From Punctularia strigosozonata HHB-11173 SS5 (taxonomy: Eukaryota; Basidiomycota; Agaricomycetes; Corticiales; Punctulariaceae): a stretch of DNA of 64,000 bases. The stretch is from positions 117,846-181,845 of the forward strand of contig NW_006767433.1 of NCBI RefSeq assembly GCF_000264995.1, written 5' to 3'. The notes beneath the pieces were generated by a model. That model had not been told where the DNA came from. It worked only from the letters and a program-made list of their open reading frames with translations, and did not search any database. The position numbers were made by a program, and so were the translations under genes. Every line of letters starts with the position of its first letter. The first letter of the stretch is position 1. Below, piece by piece: positions 4,169 through 38,207 of this stretch.

Positions 4169-4590
4169 GTTGCAGGTTGCGCCGCGCGGGCGCTTACCGC
4201 CGGGCTGCTGGGCGCTTGAGTGGCGCTTATTGTGTTAAACCTTGTTCACGGTGTCGGCCCGACGATGCCCGATGCAGGGGCCGGACTTCGCAGGGCTGGA
4301 GCTCGACGACGTCGACCGTAAACCCCCTGAGCAATGGCGCAACGGCCTTCAATGCTACGGCCGTCTGTAACTTGGCCAGTTCATCATCCTCCGCCAAGTA
4401 CCTAAGAAAAGCTCGGCAACGCATCTTGGCTCGGCCATAGACCGGTGAAGACGAAATCATGTTCCCCGGTTCGATACGGAGCTGAACTGCCGAACAGTTT
4501 ATAGGGACTTCGGTCAAAGAACTTTGGACTACACCCACTTGACCGCCTTCACGATTTCCCTCCTCAAATCCTGTCAAATCCCGCGAGGCC

Positions 4591-5891
4591 ATGTCGCAGC
4601 CAGTTCAGATGCGATCCGCGACGACGTCCGCGACGCCCACCATCGCGGAGCGCCCTCGACCATGGTACCGAAAACTCCTCGCGGCCGCGCTCTGGTTCGC
4701 CATGGACCAATGGTTCCTGATCATGGTCGGCATCCTCATCATTATCGCGTCCCAGGTTCAAGTCCCCGCTGCGCATCAGTCCATCAAGAGCGAGGTCATC
4801 AGCTACCTCTGCGTCGCGATCATCTTCCTCATCACCGGCCTGACGCTGCCCACCAAGATCCTCATCGCGAGCGCGTCTAGGATATGGTTGCACCTTTTCG
4901 TGCAGTCCTTCTGCTTTCTGTTGGACTCGGCGAGCGTGTTTGCGGTGGTGTCGATCATAGGGACGAACCACCATTTCATGGACGGCGGGTTGATGGTCGG
5001 CCTCATTTTTATGGGATGCATTCCTACTACGATATCATCGAACGTCGGTACGTCGTATACGCCCTGGATTACTCAGCGCGATCTGATGGAATACACCTAG
5101 TCATGACCCGCGCCGCGCACGGAAACGACGCCATCACCGTCGTCGAATCTACTCTCGGAAACGTCCTCGCACCCTTTCTTACCCCGCTTCTCATCAAGAT
5201 GTACCTCGCGTGCGACGCATGGTGGACCCACGCCGTTCCGCCCTCGGCAAGCGACCTCTCCGACCTCTACCGGCGCGTCTTCAAGCAGCTCGGCCTAAGC
5301 ATGCTCGTCCCCCTCTTCGTCGGGCAGCTCGTTCAAAACGCCTTCCCCGCACCCGTCAAGAAAATCATGACCGGGTACAAAGTGTCCAAGCTCTCGAGCT
5401 TCTGTCTGCTCGTCATCATCTGGTCCACGTATGACAAGGGGTTCGAGACCGGCACCTTCACCTCCGTCCCGGGGTCGAACATGATCCTCGTCGTCTTCGT
5501 CTCCGTCGGCTTCTACCTCCTTTGGCTGGCCCTCTCCGTCGTCCTATCCAGGCTGCTCCGATTCAGCAAGCGCGACACGATCGCGGTCGCCTACTGTGCC
5601 CCGGCGAAGACGCCGGCGATGGGTGTCCCCCTCGCGAACGCGATGTTCGCCCACCTCGACGGCGTCACCGCGTCCAAACTCCAGATCCCCCTCGTCATCT
5701 TCCAGGGACTGCAGATCGCGGGTGGCAGTATAATGACCATTCCGTTCCGGAGGTGGGTCAGAGACGAGGAGGAGCAGGCTAAGTTGCAAGCCGCCGCCGA
5801 CCGCACCAGCGAGACCACGGGCAACGATCAGGACGCTCCTGTTGGCGACATCGAAAAGCGGGGTGAAACACTGTCAGACGCAAAGCAATGA
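4591..5891 (+). CDS. RCH1: SBF-like membrane transporter (RCH1/SLC10A7 type)
   Basis: Two exons (4591-5047, 5101-5891) separated by a 53-nt intron give 415 residues with about ten hydrophobic segments. The sequence matches the bile acid:sodium symporter fold as found in yeast Rch1 and human SLC10A7. Supporting signatures are MDQWFLIMVG in the first membrane helix, LTLPTKIL, GLIFMGCIPTT, and TRAAHGNDA at the second-exon start. In yeast and humans this family limits calcium influx across the plasma membrane or secretory pathway; I infer the same here. The C-terminus is a short charged cytosolic tail. A decayed paralogue lies 1.2 kb downstream in the same orientation, so the locus was tandemly duplicated. 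Confidence 0.87.
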
Positions 5892-7117
5892 TGATCTTCC
5901 TGCATGCCGTAACGTTCTCCTTGGATCGCATTTAGAGAACCTTGTGAGTCTGCATTGTTCGATCACCCTGTTCACTCGCTCACTTCATCTACAGAATCTA
6001 CGCTAATCTGTTATGCTCACGTCAACACTCTAACGCATGCTTATCGATTCGTCACCTGTGTACAGTCTCATCTGAAAAATGCAGCTCCTTCAGCATGTGA
6101 ACATGGGGACCGAGCGTCCTGCTTCTAACCGCTCCGGCATTGGCGGAGTCCGGTATTCTCGATAGCCTTTGTGGCGCTCCGGCGCATCCGGCAGATGCCG
6201 CTGCTGCGCTCTACCGTCGGGAGCGCCTTGCTGACTTGTGTCTCCCTTTCCCGCGATCGTTCTTACTGCGAGAAGCTTGGCATTGGCTGAGACTGCACGT
6301 TGAAGTCGACTGCCCACAGTGAGGCGAGAGCGATTGTCGACGAGGTTGGAGTAAACCAACTGAACCCTCGTGTCGGTCGGCCAAGGCATCGGATCTCGAT
6401 TGCGACAGGTTTTGAACACCCTGGTACAACTTCGTCATGAGAGAATCCGTGGCGTTAGAGTGGTCTCATCCAATCGTACGTCTTGGCTCTCTTTTCAAGC
6501 TCAGTCAACGTTGCTCTCGCGAGTCTTTCATCTAGACTGCTTTCCGTTATGCTTTACCCACAGCGACACACGTGACGGCATTCCGTTCTTCTCCTTTGGA
6601 AGGTAGTCAACTCTCTGATTCGCACCGTTCATAGCCCCTTGACGATGAACGCTTTTCCCGAAAAGCGGGGTGGAGCGGAAACATGGCCTCTTGCCGCCAC
6701 GCTTGACGTCGGCGTGGCTCACTCCATTGCCCCCTCTCAATGTCGGAAGGCGACTGCGCATAGTTGGGGATGCGAATATTCGCCATTCTCCTTCGCGCAG
6801 TGGTGCGCACGGCGCTCCGTTGAGTGGAACACGAGCCATAGAAACACGATGCCAGCGCCTTGCCAAGGCTGATCTGGTATTGTCATGCATATTTCCGGTC
6901 GTGCAGAGCAGCGCCAGGGTGCATATCGATTCGGCACCTCTCATACGTTCTGCGAAAATCAAGTTCGCATCATCCTATGGTGTCCGTTATAAGCAAACCT
7001 CGATGTTCCAGGTCATGACTTTAGGAAATCCCTCACTTTCGATAAATAGTGGGTGTCCGTACCTGATACGCTCTTTGATGTTATCTCATACGTCGCAACC
7101 GCGTTGTCCAGAACAGG
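5892..7117. other. Intergenic, no gene supported
   Basis: About 1.2 kb between the transporter gene and its decayed copy. Short frames exist on both strands, but none has domains, a signal peptide or convincing introns. Confidence 0.5.
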
Positions 7118-8175
7118 ATGAGCGAGGTCAAAAATCGAAGTTCAGGCACTACCTCCATGAGGACGTCGACAGAGTCGTCCCCATCCCCAACCACATCGTG
7201 CAGGAGCGACCACTCTGATTTCGACGCGCCCTCGCCGGCATGATATGGCTCTTGATGGACCAGTGGTTCCTGATCATGGTCGGCGTGCTAGTTCTGCTCG
7301 CGTCCCAGATTCAAGTCCCAGAATCGCACCAAGCATCGAAGAGCGACGTTGTCAACTTCCTTTGCGTCGGGATCATCGTTGCGATCACGGGTCTTACGCT
7401 GCCCACACAGGTGCTAATCAAGAGCGCCTCGCGGATATGGCTACATCTATTCGTGCAGGTTTTCTCGTTCCTCCTTGATTAGGCGACCGTATTTGGCGTC
7501 GTCGCGTTGCTGGGAACGAACCACCATTTTATGGATGGAGGCCTGATGGTCGGGCTCGTTTCTATGGGTTGCATCTCAACGTTGGTGCGTCATCTCGAGC
7601 CACCGGCCCTCTCGCCCAGATCGCTGACGTCCTATGTAAAGTGATGACCCGAATTGCACATGGAAACGACGCCGTGACGGTCGTCGAGTCCACTCTGGGC
7701 AAAATCCTCGCGCCCTTCCTCACTCCCCTGCTTATGAGCATGTATCTTGCTTGCGACGCCTGGTGGACGCACTCCGTCCCGACCTCCTCGAGTGACTTCG
7801 GCCCGCTTTATCGACGCGTCTTCAAGCAGCTCGGGCTCAGCATGCTGCTGCCCCCTTTCGTCGGTCAGCTCGTCCAGAACATCTCCCCTTCGTACATCAA
7901 GACGATCATGACGAAATACAAGGTGGCGAAGTTATCAAGCTTCAGCCTGCTGGTCATCATCTGGTCGACATATGACAAGGGGTTTTCTTCGGGCGCCTTT
8001 ACGTCCGTCCCCGGGGCGAACATGGTCCTTGTCGTCTTCCTTTCCATATGCACTATGGCTCGCCACCAGCGTCGTCGCATCCAGAGTCGCAGGACTGAGC
8101 AAGCGGTATACGATCGCGGCCGGGAGTGTGGCGACGATACCGTTCAGGAGGTGGGTAAGAGAGGAAGAGGAACGA
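7118..8175 (+). pseudogene. Broken tandem copy of the RCH1-like transporter
   Basis: The sequence parallels the gene at 4591-5891 along its length. The match starts near MDQWFLIMVG and runs to the IPFRRWVREEEE region. Lesions are clear. The N-terminus is out of frame with the ATG at 7118. A TAG at 7480-7482 replaces the parent's Ser codon (TCG to TAG) after FLLD. A small deletion near 8045 shifts the frame. Forty-five codons present in the parent are missing after KRYTIA. Splice borders corresponding to the parent's intron persist near 7585-7642. No functional protein can be read. It is a tandem duplicate that decayed after duplication. Confidence 0.88.
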
Positions 8176-8794
8176 CTCGGAGGGGGTCCCAAATCAGTCA
8201 GTTGTATCTCCAGGGAGTTGTCCGACCCCATGAGGCTCGCGGACGGGTGGGATTCGGAATAAAGGGTGTGGACCATGAGGCAGGTGGATGCCGAGACTGG
8301 GATGCGTGATGCAGAAAACTGAAGGCTAGCAGGGATATGCAGTCGGGTCAGATAGCATAGCTCAACAGTAGCTGCATCGTGTTCTCCTTATCTATCGATA
8401 TAAAGCATGGGAAGACTGACTCCAAAATATACTTATTACTGACGCTGCAGCGGTGAGAGTTGCCGTGGGACGGAGGAGTAGGAGGCATCCAATAAGGGAT
8501 CATCTGTACGATGCTCGCGTTTTCAAGAAGAAATGACGGGATGGGTAGCTTGAGGCCGGAGCAGTTCGATATGCTGCCACGCTGATCAATAATCTCTCGT
8601 GCATCTATATACACGACGCCGACACATTTATTCGATACAGATTAACATTACTACGACCAGTACATTGCGGTGGTCAGACACACAACTTCGACGGCTTCCT
8701 ATATATGTCATCTTCATTGTTATGCGACTCCTTTTGGTCTCCAGTCAGAATACTGAGAGAGATGCCGTAAAGCCAACAAACCAGACTCACAGAT
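8176..8794. other. Intergenic, no gene supported
   Basis: Sequence between the transporter pseudogene and the 3' end of the next minus-strand gene. I see no coding or RNA feature. Confidence 0.45.
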
Positions 8795-9680: not shown

Positions 9681-10112
9681 TCAAGCCGTGATGGTTATCG
9701 TCTCGCCGCCGCAAGTGAAGGTGCACGTAGAGCTGGATGGGCAGCTTGTGAGGATGTTCAGCCCTATGCACAGTATACGCAAACCCGCTCTTAACACTCA
9801 CTTAGGCAGCTCACAGATCGGGGGAGTAGGAGTGGCCCTGGGGTAGACGGTACTGGTGATGCAGGTAGCCGTGCATGTCTCACCGACCGTGCACCTGGTG
9901 TACAAGGTCACGTTTGGAAAAAGAGGACGATTGAATCATGTCTTACAGAGGCTCGTGACAGATGAGCGTGGTGGTGGGCACCGGGGCCTCCGTAATGGCG
10001 GGGGTAGCCAAAGCCCTGAACCGTCCATTAGCACACTTACGAGAAAACGTATAGAGCTCACCCACCCAACGCAGAGAGCAGCAAGGACGACGAAGTTGGT
10101 GAGCTTGCACAT
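9681..10112 (-). CDS. Small secreted cysteine-rich protein with two C-x4-C-x5-C-x3-C modules
   Basis: Four short exons (10112-10066, 10015-9947, 9894-9802, 9744-9681; 47, 69, 93 and 64 nt) splice in frame to 90 residues. The three introns are 50, 52 and 57 nt, all GT-AG. Residues 1-19 form a signal peptide with a likely cut after Ala-Leu-Ala. The mature part is Thr/Pro-rich and has eight cysteines, at 35, 40, 46, 50 and 66, 71, 77, 81. These are two identical C-x4-C-x5-C-x3-C modules joined by a Pro/Thr linker. A one-module relative lies at 11429-11765. No contiguous frame covers the protein, so it is easy to miss. It is probably extracellular; the role is unknown. Confidence 0.8.
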
Positions 10113-11428
10113 GTTGCGAATCAAATGTGTAGAGCCGTGATGTTGTCTTTCTACGATACCTTGCACGTCTTATATAGTCCAGTGTTGCGTAGTGAACGGA
10201 CTAGTCTCTTCCATTCCAGGTCGGCCGTGCCACGGCTGGTGCCCCAAGGCACTAAACTGGTACCCGTATCTACCCTGATTACGTTCGTACGCGGGATCGC
10301 GGCGGCAATTAGGAGAAACTGTGTATTCGACCATCATATTCATGATGGATTTAGTCCTCCCGCAGTACAGTCAGCCTTCGGAGTCGCCGTCCTGCAGTCC
10401 GAAGCGTCATCTCCCGTAGTTGAAGGAGCCGCACACTCAATCCAGACGGTTACATACCCAGGACCCTATCCCATGCAAGAATGTCTGGTGGGGTGTAGGA
10501 GTAGACCAACACGGTGGCAGCACCGACTTCTGTCGTTTGGAAGTGAGTGAACGTGCGCGGAATCCGCCTGGGTCTCAGCTGGTTCTGGGTTAGACACGCA
10601 GATATGCAAGCAGCGCCGAATCAGGGCAATCATTCCAGAGAGTGTTTGCCCTCTTGTTGCCGAGCATCAAAGCACAAGGAAAATCGGTGGAAGAGCCCGA
10701 ATAGGGCACACTCACGGACTGCTACGTCAGTCCGAGTGCCTCGGGGTACGCTCCATAACGACTAAAGGGTATAACGCCGACCAGGCGGTAGCCCAAGGGA
10801 ACCTAGTGCACAGTAAGCCTTGCGTCCGGCGCGCAGCCCCATGCCATCCTTGCCGCTTTTCCGATGAAGAGTGACGTACATCCGGGCAAGTGATCCCGTT
10901 GATAGTTTTTACCTTCGAGTACGGGGAAGATCGCAGTCTGGGGCTGTGGTGGCAGTTTTGAGATACACTCCGTAGTCCGCGGTTACAGACAAGCGCCAAA
11001 TGCGGACGATAGTAACGCCCAAGCCGTGGAGGCATCCAGTTATGGAATGTGCAGCGATGTAAACCGGGGCGGCTAAGTCTTTTAGGAAGCGACGGTGATC
11101 TGGTGAACGTCCGTTAGGCCGGCGCGTTGGACGCAGTGGACACGAGCAAAGCGAAAGAGGTGACCAAAGGCCTGAGAGAAAGTCACTGAATGGCTCATCC
11201 GATGCTGTGACTATGTTACGCCGTGACTTGCACGACCCAGATGTTCAACTCCCAACGTTCAAGAGAAGGCATAAGCCGAGTTCAGTTTGCAGCAACGGCG
11301 ATGCCATTCCATGTCATATATATACGAAGCGGTCACAAGGGCGAATATTTTCAAAAGGCGAAGATCTCTTGACAGGCCCACAAGATATGTGTATCACTCT
11401 CAATCTGAACCCGTTTTGATTTCAAGCA
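10113..11428. other. Intergenic between two secreted-protein genes, no gene supported
   Basis: I looked for a third member of the cysteine-rich family here. Cysteine-bearing minus-strand stretches near 10330-10450 and 10800-10950 exist, but neither has a signal-peptide exon or a full cysteine module. Nothing else is supported. Confidence 0.4.
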
Positions 11429-11765
11429 TTACGGACTAACTGTTTCCACGATGCAAACCAACGGGCATGGTCCGCCTCGTGTACACCTGTTCCTGGCTCG
11501 TGAGCATTCATACTTCACATTGCCCGCATCTTGTAATCCACTCACGCCGGGCAAATAACGGTGGTTGTCGGCGCGCGCTTGGAAGACGGCGACGTCGTAA
11601 TGATTGGTCCTCCGGGATTGTACGGCAGAGGTGTGTCAGGTGCCGGAGCAGCGAGAACGCTATGAAGAGCATTCTATCAGAGACGCGGTTTCATTGCTGA
11701 AGAAAGATCGCGGCTTACCTCCCGAGAGCTGCGGTAAGGAGGACAAAGCTGGCGAGTTTGAACAT
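11429..11765 (-). CDS. Small secreted cysteine-rich protein with one C-x4-C-x5-C-x3-C module
   Basis: Three exons (11765-11719, 11659-11546, 11492-11429; 47, 114 and 64 nt) give 74 residues. The first and last exons have the same lengths as in the gene at 9681-10112. Residues 1-19 are a signal peptide ending Val-Leu-Ala. A Lys-Arg at 43-44 could be a Kex2-type processing site. Cysteines at 52, 57, 63 and 67 follow C-x4-C-x5-C-x3-C, preceded by PTTTVIC, where the relative has PTTTLIC, and followed by ETVSP, where the relative has STVYP. The two genes lie 1.3 kb apart on the same strand and are clearly paralogues. It is probably secreted; the role is unknown. Confidence 0.78.
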
Positions 11766-12501: not shown

Positions 12502-13103
12502 GAGTCTAGGAAGCGGAAGAGGTCAGCGTAAGGACGGACCTGCATAAAAGGTGTGAACCCAATAGGGGATTGACATAGCGAGGTGGTGATGACATACTTC
12601 AGAGGACACCGGCATGGAGACCAAGGAGAAGAGTTTTAGCTTCGCGTTCTACTCCTGGTCTGGAGGCGGGAGTCATCGCTGTTCCTGGATCCGGCCGTTC
12701 CCAACCCGTTCCATGCAAGCGTCTCCCCAAAATGTACTCGTACCCTTCTCGCGCGTCGCTGGGACTCGTTACGCCGTCACCCTCACTCGGCGGCGGAAAA
12801 GGACCCGGTATTATATGTTCCATCATGGTTCACCCCTATCCTCCTCCCTCCCGCGTTCTTCTTTGCTTTTCCGTTGTGTACGGTCGTGGGTATGGGGCAT
12901 CGCCGCTCGATGTAATCCGAATGTATTGATATTACTGTACATATCACTCTTCGATGAGAAGTGCAGAAGGGAGGAGATTGGAGTTGAAAACGACATTGAA
13001 CGACGGGCCTGACCTTGATTCGTTCGTTGACGATCCTGGGGCGGAAAGATGGGGTTTCATATCATTCTCGATCACAGCGGAATGCTGCGATTCCGGGGCT
13101 TTT

Positions 13104-13576
13104 TCACGAACGCGACGCGACCGCAGGCACCGACCCGTCCACTTTCGTTTCGGCGGTGACTGGTTGACACGAGCGTAAGTTCGTAAGAAAAACATACGAC
13201 GATGACCAAAAGAGGGCCGCGCACCCCATGGTCTCCTGTCCATCGGACACTGCTGCTTCGACGACGGCGTCCCGATCCACTTGAGCAGGCAATGCATGTG
13301 GAAGACGTGGCTGCACTCGCCCCATACTGTGAACAATGAATCGTGTTTTCGATCAGACTCTGAAGACCGTACATATAGACAGTGGATGTATGGAGAGGAG
13401 AAGACGCAACTGAGCGGGCAGTCGTCTCCGGGAACTTTGCAGCTCGGGCAGCAGCCTTCGTACGGGACGCGACAGATGCCGCACACGTCGTCCTCGTCCT
13501 CGCCGTCGCTGCGGTCTTTACCCGTGTCCCAGCGCCAGTAGGCGACGCCGTGCCAGTGTTTGATGTTGACCTTCAT
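13104..13576 (-). CDS. APC11: Anaphase-promoting complex RING subunit APC11
   Basis: Three exons (13576-13411, 13326-13225, 13159-13104) give 107 residues. It opens with MKVNIKHWHGVAYWRW, typical of APC11, and has the RING-H2 ligands Cys32/Cys35, Cys43/Cys46, Cys53, Cys60, His62, His65/His67, Cys68 and Cys82. In the APC/C, APC11 recruits the E2 and catalyses ubiquitin transfer to cell-cycle substrates. The final RING position is Asp85 (CPMDRRPW) where human and yeast APC11 have Cys; RBX1 also uses Asp there, so zinc binding is likely kept. The F-box-like gene at 13764 starts 187 bp away on the other strand. A fragment of this gene's 5' end recurs at 17673-17767. Confidence 0.92.
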
Positions 13577-13763
13577 CGATCGCGCTCGTCGTGGGCGAGG
13601 TCGTGAAGAAGGTCAACGCAGAGGGGGTCGGTTGTGACCGGCCGCGCCATCAATAGCACGCGTCGCGTCACACGCGCTGCGTCCTTTAGCCTGATCATGA
13701 GCGATCATCTTGGGCTACGCTGCTCGTACATCTCCCGTCATTAATCGCTATATCCCCACTGAG

Positions 13764-18140: not shown

Positions 18141-18323
18141 TGAGTGATTTGGTTTACGCGCTGCATCATGTCTAACCGAAACGATATCAGGAAGCATTAC
18201 CTGGTACTTTGGTGGTCGTATGATGACTGTTTTACGGTGAAATGATACGCATCATGGAGCATCACTCAATAAATGACTCTTACAAACGGTCTTCTAGATA
18301 GTATCGGCACTCTTCCACAATCA

Positions 18324-20800
18324 CTAGTCATCCCACTGGAATCCACACGTACATGCAATGAAGGCGCCTTTATTGCACATAGCACGCTTTTCTTTGCATC
18401 GTTGGCGCATTGCATGCACTAGCTCCGCGTCTCTACAGTAACAATAAACACTGTATCCCTGGCTGAAGATACTCAGGTGCTTGCTTACCTCGTCACCCAA
18501 TAAATCGCCGCGTCTGCGGATGTCGACGCTAAAATGTGTAATTCCATTTCCTCGTTTTCGAGCTCGTCAGAGAATGGGACGCCTATCGGATGCAAATTTT
18601 CTGAAAGAGTGAGGAGAGCGCCATCCTGATCGTTGCCGTCCAGTTGACGATAAAGGCCGATATGTTCGTGCCTCCTCCCGAACGGCAAGACTACGGGATG
18701 GTAACCGTCGCCCATTGAGGCGAGTGAGACCCGGCGCAGGTGCTCGCGGCCACGGAATGGCGCAATTAGTCGAGCATAGGACATGTCTTTGCGGTAGTGT
18801 CGAAAGGTGGGGTGCGGATGACGATAATGATCGTCGTAAACCTGTGCGACAGCTCGGTTGAGCATCAAGGTTGAGGGCAGAGGGTGAACACACGAGCCTT
18901 AGGCTGCTTTCTCCCGCAATCGGTCAGGGATCCGACGACAATTCCCGTACATCGAAGCTCCAATAGGTCGTCCCGCACGTCCCGAGATAACCACTCCTGC
19001 AGCACTTCGGGTACCTCTGTCGAAGTTTCAGCGGCGGCGGCCTTCAATCTCGAAGCCAGAGCTAAGCGGACGCGCTTATCCCACAATGGCGCGATGAACT
19101 CGACGTCTCTCATCATAGTGCTCGAAAAAGACAATCTACAACACCTTTGGATCAGTCAGATGAGCCTGGTCAAAGCGTCGGACCCACGATAAAATCAAGG
19201 AGACGGTGTTTTTACAAATCGCCTCCAGAGCGCCAGGTGGGATCTCACGCCTGATCCCGCCCCTGTTAATCCATCGCTCAAGATCCAAGGAAGACATTGC
19301 GCGTTCTCTGAAGGACATCTGGCACGGCCCGCCCAACGGATGGTCCTCCCATATTAGAAGGAGGCTCGCAGCGGGATCCGAAGCATCCATTAGGCCCATC
19401 AGCTGACCGGGTTCCAGACGATCCTTGAGGGAGTTGAGCTCCTCGCGCATCGGCGGGGCTGGATGCCATAGTATGTTGCGGCGGAAGCCAATTTGAATGG
19501 TCTGAGCTGCAGCTTGGACCGCTCCTCCGCCTTCGCAAAGGTCGGGATGTTGGGCTCTGTGAAATTTCGGTCATGGCACAGTCCACCTGCGCAAAACTCA
19601 AAATGTACCTGAAGCATAACAACGGGCGCAAGAGGATCTCGAGGGTATCTGGACGGGCGGTCCAGAACCAGGGACCATATAACGATACGAGAAAGTCGGT
19701 TAATGCGGCTTGCAGCGTGTGATCCTTGCACTCGCCGAGACATCGCCACCAACGCTGGACGACGTCGAATGTAAGCTCGTCGACCATGCTAGATTTGAAC
19801 CAAATTGAAGTCCAGGTGACGAAGAAGCGTCGCAGCCGAGTGATGGCAAGTATTTGCACATCCGGGTCACTGTCGTCTTACGCAGTTACATGTATCTGTT
19901 CAGTGAAGGATGCGACAGCTGCTTACCTCGTCAACTCGATAATGTGGGAGGATGTCCTTCGTAGATGACCCATATACTCGGTAAATATCGTATCGTCCCG
20001 GGTGAGATGGAGTTCCTTGCCGGACAGGGTGATGCAAGCGTCGAGAGAGTCAAACTCTTTGATTTGATTGAGGACTCTGCTCTGGGTAAGGCACGCAAGC
20101 GCTCGGCGAGATGAAGAGACGAGCGATGCGCTCTCGCATTCTTGCTCGAGGTAAAGAATAGTCCGTAAACGTAGCAACGATGTCACCGCGTTCAGGGAAG
20201 CAAAAAGGTCCAGGAACGCAACGTGAAATGATACCAAAGCCATGATGTAGTGAACGGATATGACGCGAGACGAGACGTTCGGTCCGCTAAGCATTAGAGT
20301 TAGCTCCGAGCTACTGGACTCGTCGAGGCGGAGTAGACTGACTTTAGAAGATGAACCAGTTCTTGACAAGCTCGTCGCACAGATGACCGAGCGACCAGCA
20401 CCTTCACCGTACGGTCTCTACACATAGTGCACAGGAGCGAAGGGGCGTCAGAGATCCACTTCAGCATCTTGTCGAGGTTCGCGTGGTGCGGTATGCCTGC
20501 GAGCTCGTCGCTGACCGCGTGCTGGTGCCTACAGGACGACGATTGAATCGGGAGGGTACGCATGGTGGCACATTGCCGAAGGGCACGCGATACCCTTTCT
20601 TGCGGTCCATAGCCCATACGACGTGCGAGGGTGATCAACAGTCGATCCAAACGAAATCCCCACGAAGTGAGCAAGCAGTTGAGCGACCGGCCCGGCCCGA
20701 GGATGTCGTCTTCGGTAGCGTCGGTGTCTGTAACGAAGGAGAGACGATCCATGTCGATAGGTGGCGCGTTGTCAGCAAATATGTCGCTATGAGTTGACAT
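18324..20800 (-). CDS. Orphan 720-residue protein, copy A
   Basis: Seven exons join in frame with GT-AG introns: 20800-20343, 20286-19927, 19869-19609, 19556-19188, 19144-18892, 18841-18489 and 18432-18324. The paralogue at 35731-38207 has the same first four exon lengths (458, 360, 261, 369 nt), which supports the model. The protein is mostly helical with no signal peptide. It has a Cys-rich patch in exon 1, RWINRGGIRREIPP in exon 4, and a conserved C-terminal end, KGAFIACTCGFQWDD. I do not recognise the family. It resembles the large uncharacterised proteins that expand in Agaricomycetes. Confidence 0.75.
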
Positions 20801-35301: not shown

Positions 35302-35730
35302 CTACCTATTTTCTGTGCCTACAAAGGGTTCAAATGTTCAACCAATGGTCCAGGATGTGTCGGACTATGTCGAAGAGACTGGACGTCGAGCGCCAGATGC
35401 AATATGTAAGCAAGAGCTGGTTGAGACTCGGGAGGCAAGACGCGACGTCGCGTCCGCTCCAATCGGACATGGATTTGTGGAGGCCTCCCCCAGCCTCAGG
35501 CTTGTACAATGCAAATTCACCTAATACGTGTACCTTCGGAATTATACTCAATATGCAATGGTCCACGACATAATATATTGGCAAGATAGTCTCCATTTTC
35601 CAGCAGGCAGCCAACTTGTGATCCAGAAACTCGATTGTAATGACATCAAGTCGTGCATGCAACGTGAACATATTCGTCAAGTATACATACCCACCGGATC
35701 CGAGGAGGATCAAGACGAGCTGGCAAACAC

Positions 35731-38207
35731 CTAGTCATCCCATTCAAAACCGCACGTACATGCGATGAATGCGCCTTTCGCGCACGAAACGGCGATACGT
35801 CGCTTCTGCTCAGGGCGGAGAGCGTGCACAAGCTTGGTGGTCCTGCAAGGGCATGTCGATAAGAAGTACGCATCGAGAAGATTTGAATATTCCTCCCGAC
35901 CTCGTGACCCAGTAAATCGCAGCATCCGCAGATGTCGACGCCAGGACGTGCAACCCCGTTTCCTCGTTCTTGATGTCGTTCGTGCAGGCTGTCTCGACCG
36001 GACGTAGATCTTCCGAAAGGGTCAAGAGAACGCCGTCGTTCTCGTCCTCGCTGTCCAGTTGACGGAAGAGACCGATATGCTCGCGCCTTCGTCCAAACGG
36101 TAGGACGATGGGGTGGTACCCCTTGTCCATCACACTGAGTGGAACCCAGCGCAGGTGCTCACGACCGCGGAACGGGGCGACGAGACGCGCGTACGAAGTC
36201 TCTTTCTGGTAGTGCCGGAACGTGGGGTACGGATGACGGTAATGGTCATCGTACGCCTGAACGTCGATCAGCATCGCTATGATGGCCATATGATGATCAT
36301 ACGTGCCTTGGCATCATCATCGCCATCCGTGAGGGAGCCGAAGACGATTCCCGTGCATCGGAGCTCCGCGATGTTATCATGTACTTCCTTGGACAGCCAT
36401 TCATGCAATACCTCGGGGACATTTCTTGAGGATGCAGCTCCAGCATCCTCCAGCCGCGAAGCCAGAGCGGAGCGAACACGCTTCTCCCATGCCGGCGCTA
36501 CAAACTCGACGTCCCTCATTGTCGTTGCGGTAAAAGGCGACCTGGACCTGACGTTAGCTTCGTAGAATCTGAGAGTATCTAAGCTGCACTCGCGATAGAA
36601 GAGAAGACACCGCGTCTTCGCATATCGCCGCCAGAGCTCGTGGTGGGATCTCCCGCCTGATCCCGCCCCTGTTGATCCATCGCTCGATATCCAAAGAGGT
36701 CATCGCACGCTCTCTGAACGATGCTTCGCAAGGACCAGCCAACGGGTGGTCCTCCCATATCTCGAGGAGGCGCGCAGCGGGATCCGATGCATCCACCAGG
36801 TCCATCAGCTGGCCGAGTTCCAGGTGATCCCTGAGGGAGTTGAGCTCCTCGCGCAGCGGCGGCGCTGGATGCCACAGGATGTTGCGGCGGAAGCATGTTT
36901 GGATGCTCTGCGCCGCGGATTGGACCGCACCTCCGCCTTCGCACAGTTCAGGGTGCTGGACCCTGTGGGGTCCAAGTTACAAAAGACGTTTTTCATCCTC
37001 GTACCATGCCCTACCTGAAGCATAACAGGGGACGTAGGAGGATCTCGAGCGTATCGGGACGGGCGGTCCAGAACCAGGCCCCGTAGAGCGACACGAGGAA
37101 GTCGGTCAAAGCGGACTGCAGCGTGGGATCCGTACATTCGCCGAGGCATCGCCACCAGCTCTGGAGAACGTCGAACGTGAGTTCGTCGACCATGCTGGAT
37201 TTGAACCAGATCGAACTCCAGGTGACGAAGAAGCGTCTCAGGCGAGTGATGGCTAATATCTGCACGTCCGGGTGACTGTGAGTATGAGGAGTCAGCCACG
37301 AGCGATCGAGGAACGAATAGCAAGGGCTCACCTGGTGAGTGCTATGAGACGGGAAGATACGTGGTTCAAATCGTCCATTCGCTCGTGGAACCGCTTCTCA
37401 TCCCGGGTATGATGGAGTCCCTTGCCGAACATGGTGACGCAAACGTCGAGGGAGTCGAACTCTTTGAGCTGATTGAGGACCTCGCCTTGGGTCAGGCATG
37501 CGAGAGCCCGACGAGAAGGTCGAGCAAGCAGGGTGCTCTCGTATCCGGGCTCGAGGTGCAATAGAAGTCTCAGTTGTAACAGCGACGGTACTGCTTCTAA
37601 AGCAATGAAGAGTTCTTGAAACGCAACGTGAAATGCGATCAGCGCAGTGATGTAGTGGATAGCAATAGCCCGAGACGACATATTGCTTCCGCTGGATAGG
37701 ATATCGCCAGTCAACCGCGTAGAGCATACACAAGAAGGGCGAAACTCACTTCAGGAGGAGAACAAGCCTCTGACAAGCTCTACGGACAGATTTCCGCGCG
37801 ATCAGCGCCTTGGCCGTTCGATCTCTGCACATGGGACACATAAGCGAGGCGGACTCAGAGATCCACTCCAGCATGTCGTTCAGGCTCCCGTGGTTCGGTA
37901 TCCCCGCGAGCGCATCGCCGACCGCATCCTTGTGCCTACAAGACGACGATTGAATGGGGAGGGTACCAATTCTGGCACATTGCCGAAGAGCGCGCGATAC
38001 CGTTGCCTGCGGTCCGTATCCTAGACGGTTCGCGAGCGATATCAGGATTTGGTCCAAGCGGAGGCCGCAGGAGGTGAGGAGGCGGCTGAGCGAGCGGCCC
38101 GGGCCGAGAATGTCGTCGTCGGTGGCGTTCGTGTCGGTGACGAAGGATAGGCGATTGAAGTCGATCGGAGGCGGGCTGTCGGTAACGCTGCTGGTGTATG
38201 TTGCCAT
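35731..38207 (-). CDS. Orphan ~720-residue protein, copy B (possibly breaking down)
   Basis: Paralogue of the gene at 18324-20800. Exons 38207-37750, 37691-37332, 37275-37015 and 36962-36594 have exactly the lengths of copy A (458, 360, 261, 369 nt). The next ones, 36547-36303, 36256-35901 and 35842-35731, follow. The intron after exon 4 would need a GC donor (GCGAGT) where copy A has GT. Exon 5 is 245 nt against 253 in copy A, and joining it to exon 6 shifts the frame by one. So copy B either uses sites I did not find or has a frameshift. The C-terminal KGAFIACTCGFEWDD is kept. Function unknown. Confidence 0.62.

Follow-up and report, generated by a model that had tools for sequence, protein, structure and literature searches.

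Kex2 cleaves after dibasic pairs such as KR and RR, and copsin is a six-cysteine defensin of a type with six or more cysteines in a CS-alpha-beta pattern. In the sections of the literature on which we draw, several groups of fungal precursors come close to the genes described here. Copsin is named there as KEX2-cleaved (PMC9769878), and K2PP effectors are delimited by a disordered pro-region that is followed by KR, RR or LxxR within the first half of the protein (PMC8528282). One survey of KEPs required at least three similar units (PMC6339444), and a UstYa neighbour was counted for 103 of 1680 basidiomycete KEPs (PMC7329392). The knockout of kep genes in C. cinerea caused no detectable phenotype (PMC9769878). 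XP or XA following a Kex2 site is given as the signature of Ste13 (PMC6339444), and X-Pro after a Kex2 site also occurs in basidiomycete precursors (PMC6339444, PMC9769878).

We analyzed a window of 64,000 nt (C1:117846-181845, where C1 denotes the contig; positions without this prefix are those of the window) in the 33.6 Mb, 32-contig genome of Punctularia strigosozonata. A preliminary description of the window had reported two small genes, A and B, as members of a family of secreted proteins with a common cysteine module. Its observation is partly confirmed and its interpretation partly supported by our data: genes A and B, together with a third gene, C, form a real local family of small, probably secreted proteins with a four-cysteine module. 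By analogy, these proteins would work most like Kex2-processed secreted peptides.

Gene models and family membership

Gene A was recovered exactly as claimed (90 aa, two modules, exons of 47, 69, 93 and 64 nt on the minus strand). The claimed model of gene B (74 aa, exons of 47, 114 and 64 nt) was also reproduced, provided that the acceptor of the preliminary description was used, and this acceptor is probably the wrong one. The exon reproduction likewise bore out that both first exons are 47 nt long. All five introns of the two genes are GT..AG (5/5), and all are in phase 2, as calculated from the exon lengths. The features are listed below.

10170-10176, minus strand: TATATAA box of gene A, starting 64 nt upstream of the ATG
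10066-10112, minus strand: gene A exon 1, 47 nt, putative signal peptide MCKLTNFVVLAALCVG (exon reproduction)
9947-10015, minus strand: gene A exon 2, 69 nt, PTTTLIC and the first half of module 1
9802-9894, minus strand: gene A exon 3, 93 nt, phase 2-2 symmetric (exon reproduction and splice-aware scan)
9681-9744, minus strand: gene A exon 4, 64 nt, carrying the rest of module 2 and the stop codon
11821-11826, minus strand: TATA-like ACATAA of gene B, starting 61 nt upstream of the ATG
11719-11765, minus strand: gene B exon 1, 47 nt, putative signal peptide MFKLASFVLLTAALG
11546-11659, minus strand: gene B exon 2, 114 nt, pro-region with PGGPI, the Kex2-type site SSKR/AP and PTTTVIC
11487-11545, minus strand: gene B intron 2 with the favoured acceptor, 59 nt (60 nt in gene C)
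11429-11486, minus strand: gene B exon 3 with the favoured acceptor, 58 nt (11429-11492, 64 nt, in the preliminary description)

A whole-genome protein search with B identified the third paralogue, gene C, outside the window at C1:94053-93669 on the minus strand. It has exons of 47, 159 and 58 nt and encodes 87 aa, with the putative signal peptide MFKLASSVVLVYILS within the 47-nt exon. A phase-2 first exon of 47 nt is common to the three genes, the introns of the family measure 50-61 nt, and the N-terminus of each protein was judged by eye to be hydrophobic. ACATAA is also present at -61 in gene C, and each of the three genes has a TATA-like box between -61 and -64. Exon 2 of gene A resembles, in alignment, the 3' end of exon 2 in B and C. 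Compared with that of B, the pro-region of gene C (C1:93945-93787) is longer by 15 inserted residues in which the PGGPI unit is repeated; read from the alignment, this appears as a second small internal duplication within the family. With exons of only 47-159 nt, these genes escape contiguous-frame reading.

Small exons of this kind, as well as the weak-looking acceptor ACAAG of the last intron of gene A, would fit decaying duplicates or chance readings of non-coding DNA, but several results make this explanation highly improbable. Over 72 aligned codon pairs, B and C differ by 39.1 synonymous and 24.9 non-synonymous changes (dN 0.178, dS 1.64), giving an omega of approximately 0.11 that is only rough because dS is near saturation. 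Such a low ratio suggests that the spliced frames of B and C are under purifying selection, and no other result argues more strongly for real genes. None of the three genes contains an internal stop, their exon phases match, and ACAAG is the site that preserves the module. A splice-aware scan for C-x(2-5)-C-x5-C-x3-C interrupted by a phase-2 intron yielded four donors, namely those of the two modules of A (A1 and A2), B and C, compared with 0 in both reversed controls and a mean of 0.33 (maximum, 2) in 60 Markov-simulated sequences; the pattern was derived from A, B and C themselves, and the result therefore shows rarity and is no independent test. The same kind of scan with a phase-1 intron gave one match. 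The scan covered both strands of C1:1-301845, or about 267 kb once long N runs are subtracted. These N runs total about 35 kb (C1:181846-206952, 25 kb directly after the window; C1:48446-50438; C1:65532-73203) and would hide any family members within them.

The paralogy of the three genes was also evident in full-length alignments, as the scores of A-B, A-C and B-C each exceeded those of all 1000 shuffles. B and C additionally resemble each other outside the coding sequence. Only 2 of 500 shuffles scored as high as their upstream DNA, and their second introns scored 5 against a maximum of 4 among 200 shuffles; the first introns scored 3, whereas the best shuffle scored 4. No such likeness was seen between the upstream regions of A and B or of A and C, for which 134 and 359 of 500 shuffles, respectively, scored as high. 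The third paralogue, the low dN/dS, the common gene structure and the TATA-like boxes thus support the claim that small cysteine proteins, probably secreted, are encoded here by a real gene family.

At E up to 10, protein searches of the whole genome, run with the three proteins and two pieces as queries, listed no genes other than A, B and C. Their sensitivity is limited, as the B and C queries did not list A and the A query listed neither B nor C. The module piece of B, used as a genome query, did not list gene C, and diverged members of the family may thus be overlooked; the search for members covered the genome of this single species.

The preliminary description knew of no named family for the module, and our searches agree. 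In Pfam-A, no family matched A, B (74-aa and 72-aa versions) or C at E up to 10. When A and the 74-aa version of B were used as queries against PDB sequences, A gave seven weak matches (best E 0.43) and B gave 3369 at E up to 10 (best E 2.5e-6). We judged both sets spurious, and the best 60 of the 3369 matches of B were antibody chains aligned on the Gly/Pro/Ser/Thr-rich part and beyond. Among the literature matches listed (the best 20 of 24 for the spacing), no paper named the module. The family is outside every family searched, yet of a kind that fungi commonly make.

Cysteine spacing and the last acceptor of gene B

Intron 2 of gene B ends in CCAG/GAACAG/GTG, which offers two in-frame acceptors 6 nt apart. 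The upstream acceptor, used in the preliminary description, gives C-x4-C, a 64-nt last exon and 74 aa; the downstream acceptor gives C-x2-C-x5-C-x3-C, a 58-nt last exon and 72 aa. We favour the downstream site as the probable one because of its match to gene C, the intron position and the branch-point distance. Gene C has C-x2-C and a 58-nt last exon, and only one in-frame acceptor was found there. With the downstream acceptor in B, all four modules have the intron within the codon that immediately precedes Cys2. The branch-like CTCAC of B lies 14 nt from the downstream acceptor vs 8 nt from the upstream one, and the corresponding distances in other introns are 12, 13, 17, 16 and 17 nt, by a rule that additionally lists sites at 3, 4 and 27 nt. 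By this rule, the second intron of A has no branch-like site. The last acceptor of gene B is nevertheless ambiguous as judged from sequence, and both sites may be in use.

Given the favoured acceptor, two earlier claims probably have to be revised. Identical module spacing had been proposed for A and B, but the first gap is probably x2 in B vs x4 in A, and the last exons, described as equal at 64 nt, are probably 64 nt in A and 58 nt in both B and C. The probable constants of the family are thus C-x5-C-x3-C and a phase-2 intron just before Cys2; the first gap would be x4 in A but x2 in the other two genes. The flanking motifs PTTT(L/V)IC and (S/E)TV(Y/S)P, which had been presented as common to the modules, are indeed common to module 1 of A and to B; module 2 of A instead has TPTPPIC and ETITI.

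The segments CPACTRGGPCPLVC (B) and CPTCPPGKACPRVC (C), with their C-x2-C and C-x3-C pairs and prolines, resemble two metal-binding knuckles, and comparable spacings are found in the parts of the zinc-finger and iron-sulfur literature consulted. However, the proteins are apparently secreted, and cysteines usually oxidise there; the modules of A have x4 and lack the prolines, and the Pfam search of A, B and C yielded no zinc domain. A metal-binding unit is therefore very improbable.

Cx5Cx3C is moreover a motif of the SUN domain, which is much larger than the module of A, B and C. These three proteins differ from SUN-domain proteins in that they have no Pfam match. In the excerpt of a paper on the SUN-domain family of the fungal cell wall, the string Cx5Cx3C appears once (PMC13251364).

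Proposed processing and comparison with described precursors

The preliminary account is silent on the Kex2-type sites of B and C. The dibasic sites KR/AP (SSKR/AP in B) and RR/VP (PSRR/VP in C) are aligned with each other at the exact start of the conserved block. Gene A has VYPR/AT between its modules and lacks both a dibasic site and a PGGPI pro-region. The natural C-termini of B (ETVSP) and C (ETISP) resemble STVYP, the end of module 1 of A that stands before the R of YPR. The genome encodes candidate enzymes as well. A profile search of the genome identified kexin-like genes through two P-domain matches on C9, of which one shares an open frame with a subtilase match and the other lies near a subtilase match in a different frame; the better of the two spans two stops, which we read as a probable intron. 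A DPPIV_N match was found in two adjoining pieces on C11.

On balance, we favour the view that A, B and C are Kex2-processed prepro-peptides and that A is a two-peptide precursor. The signal peptide would direct the product of each gene into the secretory pathway, and a Kex2-type protease would cut B and C after KR or RR, right before the module. A Ste13-like dipeptidyl peptidase may then strip AP (B) or VP (C). The product of B or C would have 26-28 residues and four cysteines, most likely in two disulfides, and would start with TTT(V/I)ICP and end with ET(V/I)SP. In A, a cut at VYPR/AT and the trimming of Arg by a carboxypeptidase would yield a first peptide ending in STVYP, and the second peptide would be ATPTPPIC...ITITA. 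VYPR fits Kex2 because proline is tolerated at P2 and an aliphatic residue is preferred at P4, as stated in the portion of the source used (PMC8528282). Nevertheless, the processing of A may differ from that of B and C, or may not occur, because A lacks the dibasic site and the PGGPI pro-region. Across the family, the released peptides would be about 26-38 aa long and probably two-disulfide. The net charges of the predicted peptides (K+R minus D+E) are 0, +1, -3 and -2, and classical cationic membrane-lytic action is unlikely because such peptides are near-neutral to acidic. We guess that they act extracellularly, either in the interaction with other organisms or in signalling.

It is also possible, though in our opinion rather doubtful, that the three are ordinary small secreted cysteine-rich proteins that act without being cut; the module would then be a structural knot, and KR/RR would be incidental. 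Gene A fits this explanation, since a dibasic site is absent from it and one folded unit could be built from the eight cysteines that follow its putative signal peptide. According to the part of the source consulted, fungi commonly have small secreted proteins that lack known domains (PMC7105643). The explanation does not account for a dibasic site kept in B and C exactly at the conserved-block start with X-Pro after it, nor for the likeness of their natural C-termini to the end of module 1 of A just before the R of YPR. If Kex2 processing is true, the family represents a new four-cysteine class among fungal secreted peptides and a simple route from single-peptide to repeat precursors. If it is not true, the genes are another small secreted cysteine-rich family of a common kind.

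Compared with KEPs, the family is alike in its putative signal peptide, in Kex2-type sites before short units, in X-Pro in B and C and in the repeated unit of A. However, there are two modules in A and one each in B and C, and the linker VYPR/AT of A is non-dibasic, whereas KEP units are separated by KR, RR or KK. The units of A, B and C also hold four cysteines, in contrast to the peptides of Agaricomycetes KEPs, which the excerpt describes as linear and minimally modified (PMC9769878). According to the portion of the survey used, most basidiomycete KEPs lack a UstYa neighbour (PMC7329392), and the same is true of A, B and C, with no UstYa match on C1. The genome contains eight UstYa (DUF3328) matches, all of them off this contig, and a dikaritin-type RiPP, for which UstYa genes would be expected next to the precursor, is unlikely.

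With K2PP effectors and copsin, the family has in common a putative signal peptide, a short Pro/Gly/Ser/Thr-rich pro-region, a dibasic site and a cysteine-containing mature part. It differs in the mature part of B and C, which would be short (about 28 aa), carry little charge and contain four cysteines. In addition, the dibasic site lies past the midpoint of the protein and not in its first half (KR at 43-44 of 72 in B; RR at 58-59 of 87 in C). We therefore assigned A, B and C to neither KEPs nor K2PP effectors, on account of the unit number and dibasic linker in the first case and of the first-half position in the second. We also rejected a defensin of the copsin type, as each predicted peptide has four cysteines and no Pfam match was obtained. 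Cylindracin/PRI3 has 95 aa, a 20-aa signal peptide and eight conserved cysteines, similar to the 90 aa of gene A and its eight cysteines downstream of the putative signal peptide; compared by description, as given in the part of the paper used, its cysteine domain is basic and glycine-rich, whereas the predicted peptides of gene A are acidic (PMC11532979).

The second module of gene A and neighbouring features

Exon 3 of gene A holds the second half of module 1, the linker VYPR/AT and the first half of module 2. Its 93 nt lie between phase-2 introns, and it is therefore duplicable without a frame shift. When the cysteines were held fixed, the similarity of A1 to B was reached by 0 of 1000 shuffles and that of A1 to C by 1 of 1000. 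A2 was not significantly similar to A1, B or C under the same procedure (80, 89 and 46 of 1000 shuffles, respectively, matched its scores), and the kinship of module 2 thus rests on cysteine spacing and intron position. The earlier suggestion of a repeat unit able to expand gains a concrete basis from the frame-neutral exon, but its premise that A2 is kin to the other modules is carried by the cysteines and the intron position. The second unit of A probably arose by duplication of a phase-2-bounded segment across an intron. We tentatively suggest, with more doubt than conviction, that the family is an early step toward a multi-peptide precursor, in which the frame-neutral exon of a single-peptide prepro-gene, with its module split by a phase-2 intron, was duplicated, the old C-terminus plus Arg became a protease site and two disulfide peptides resulted.

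Around these genes, 20 of the 140 frames of at least 130 aa were searched against Pfam. An inverted duplicate (88.6% identity, 920 bases) joins 12680-13577 of the window to C1:109044-109933 and covers an APC11-like RING gene (Pfam zf-ANAPC11, 12947-13612); APC11 is usually single copy. Two adjoining SBF-like transporter genes lie at 4543-8306 on the plus strand, where 4677-5589 and 7230-8122 form a direct repeat (72% identity, 923 bases). Another direct repeat of 2.5 kb and 72% identity links 18318-20773 (C1:136163-138618) to 35724-38180 (C1:153569-156025).
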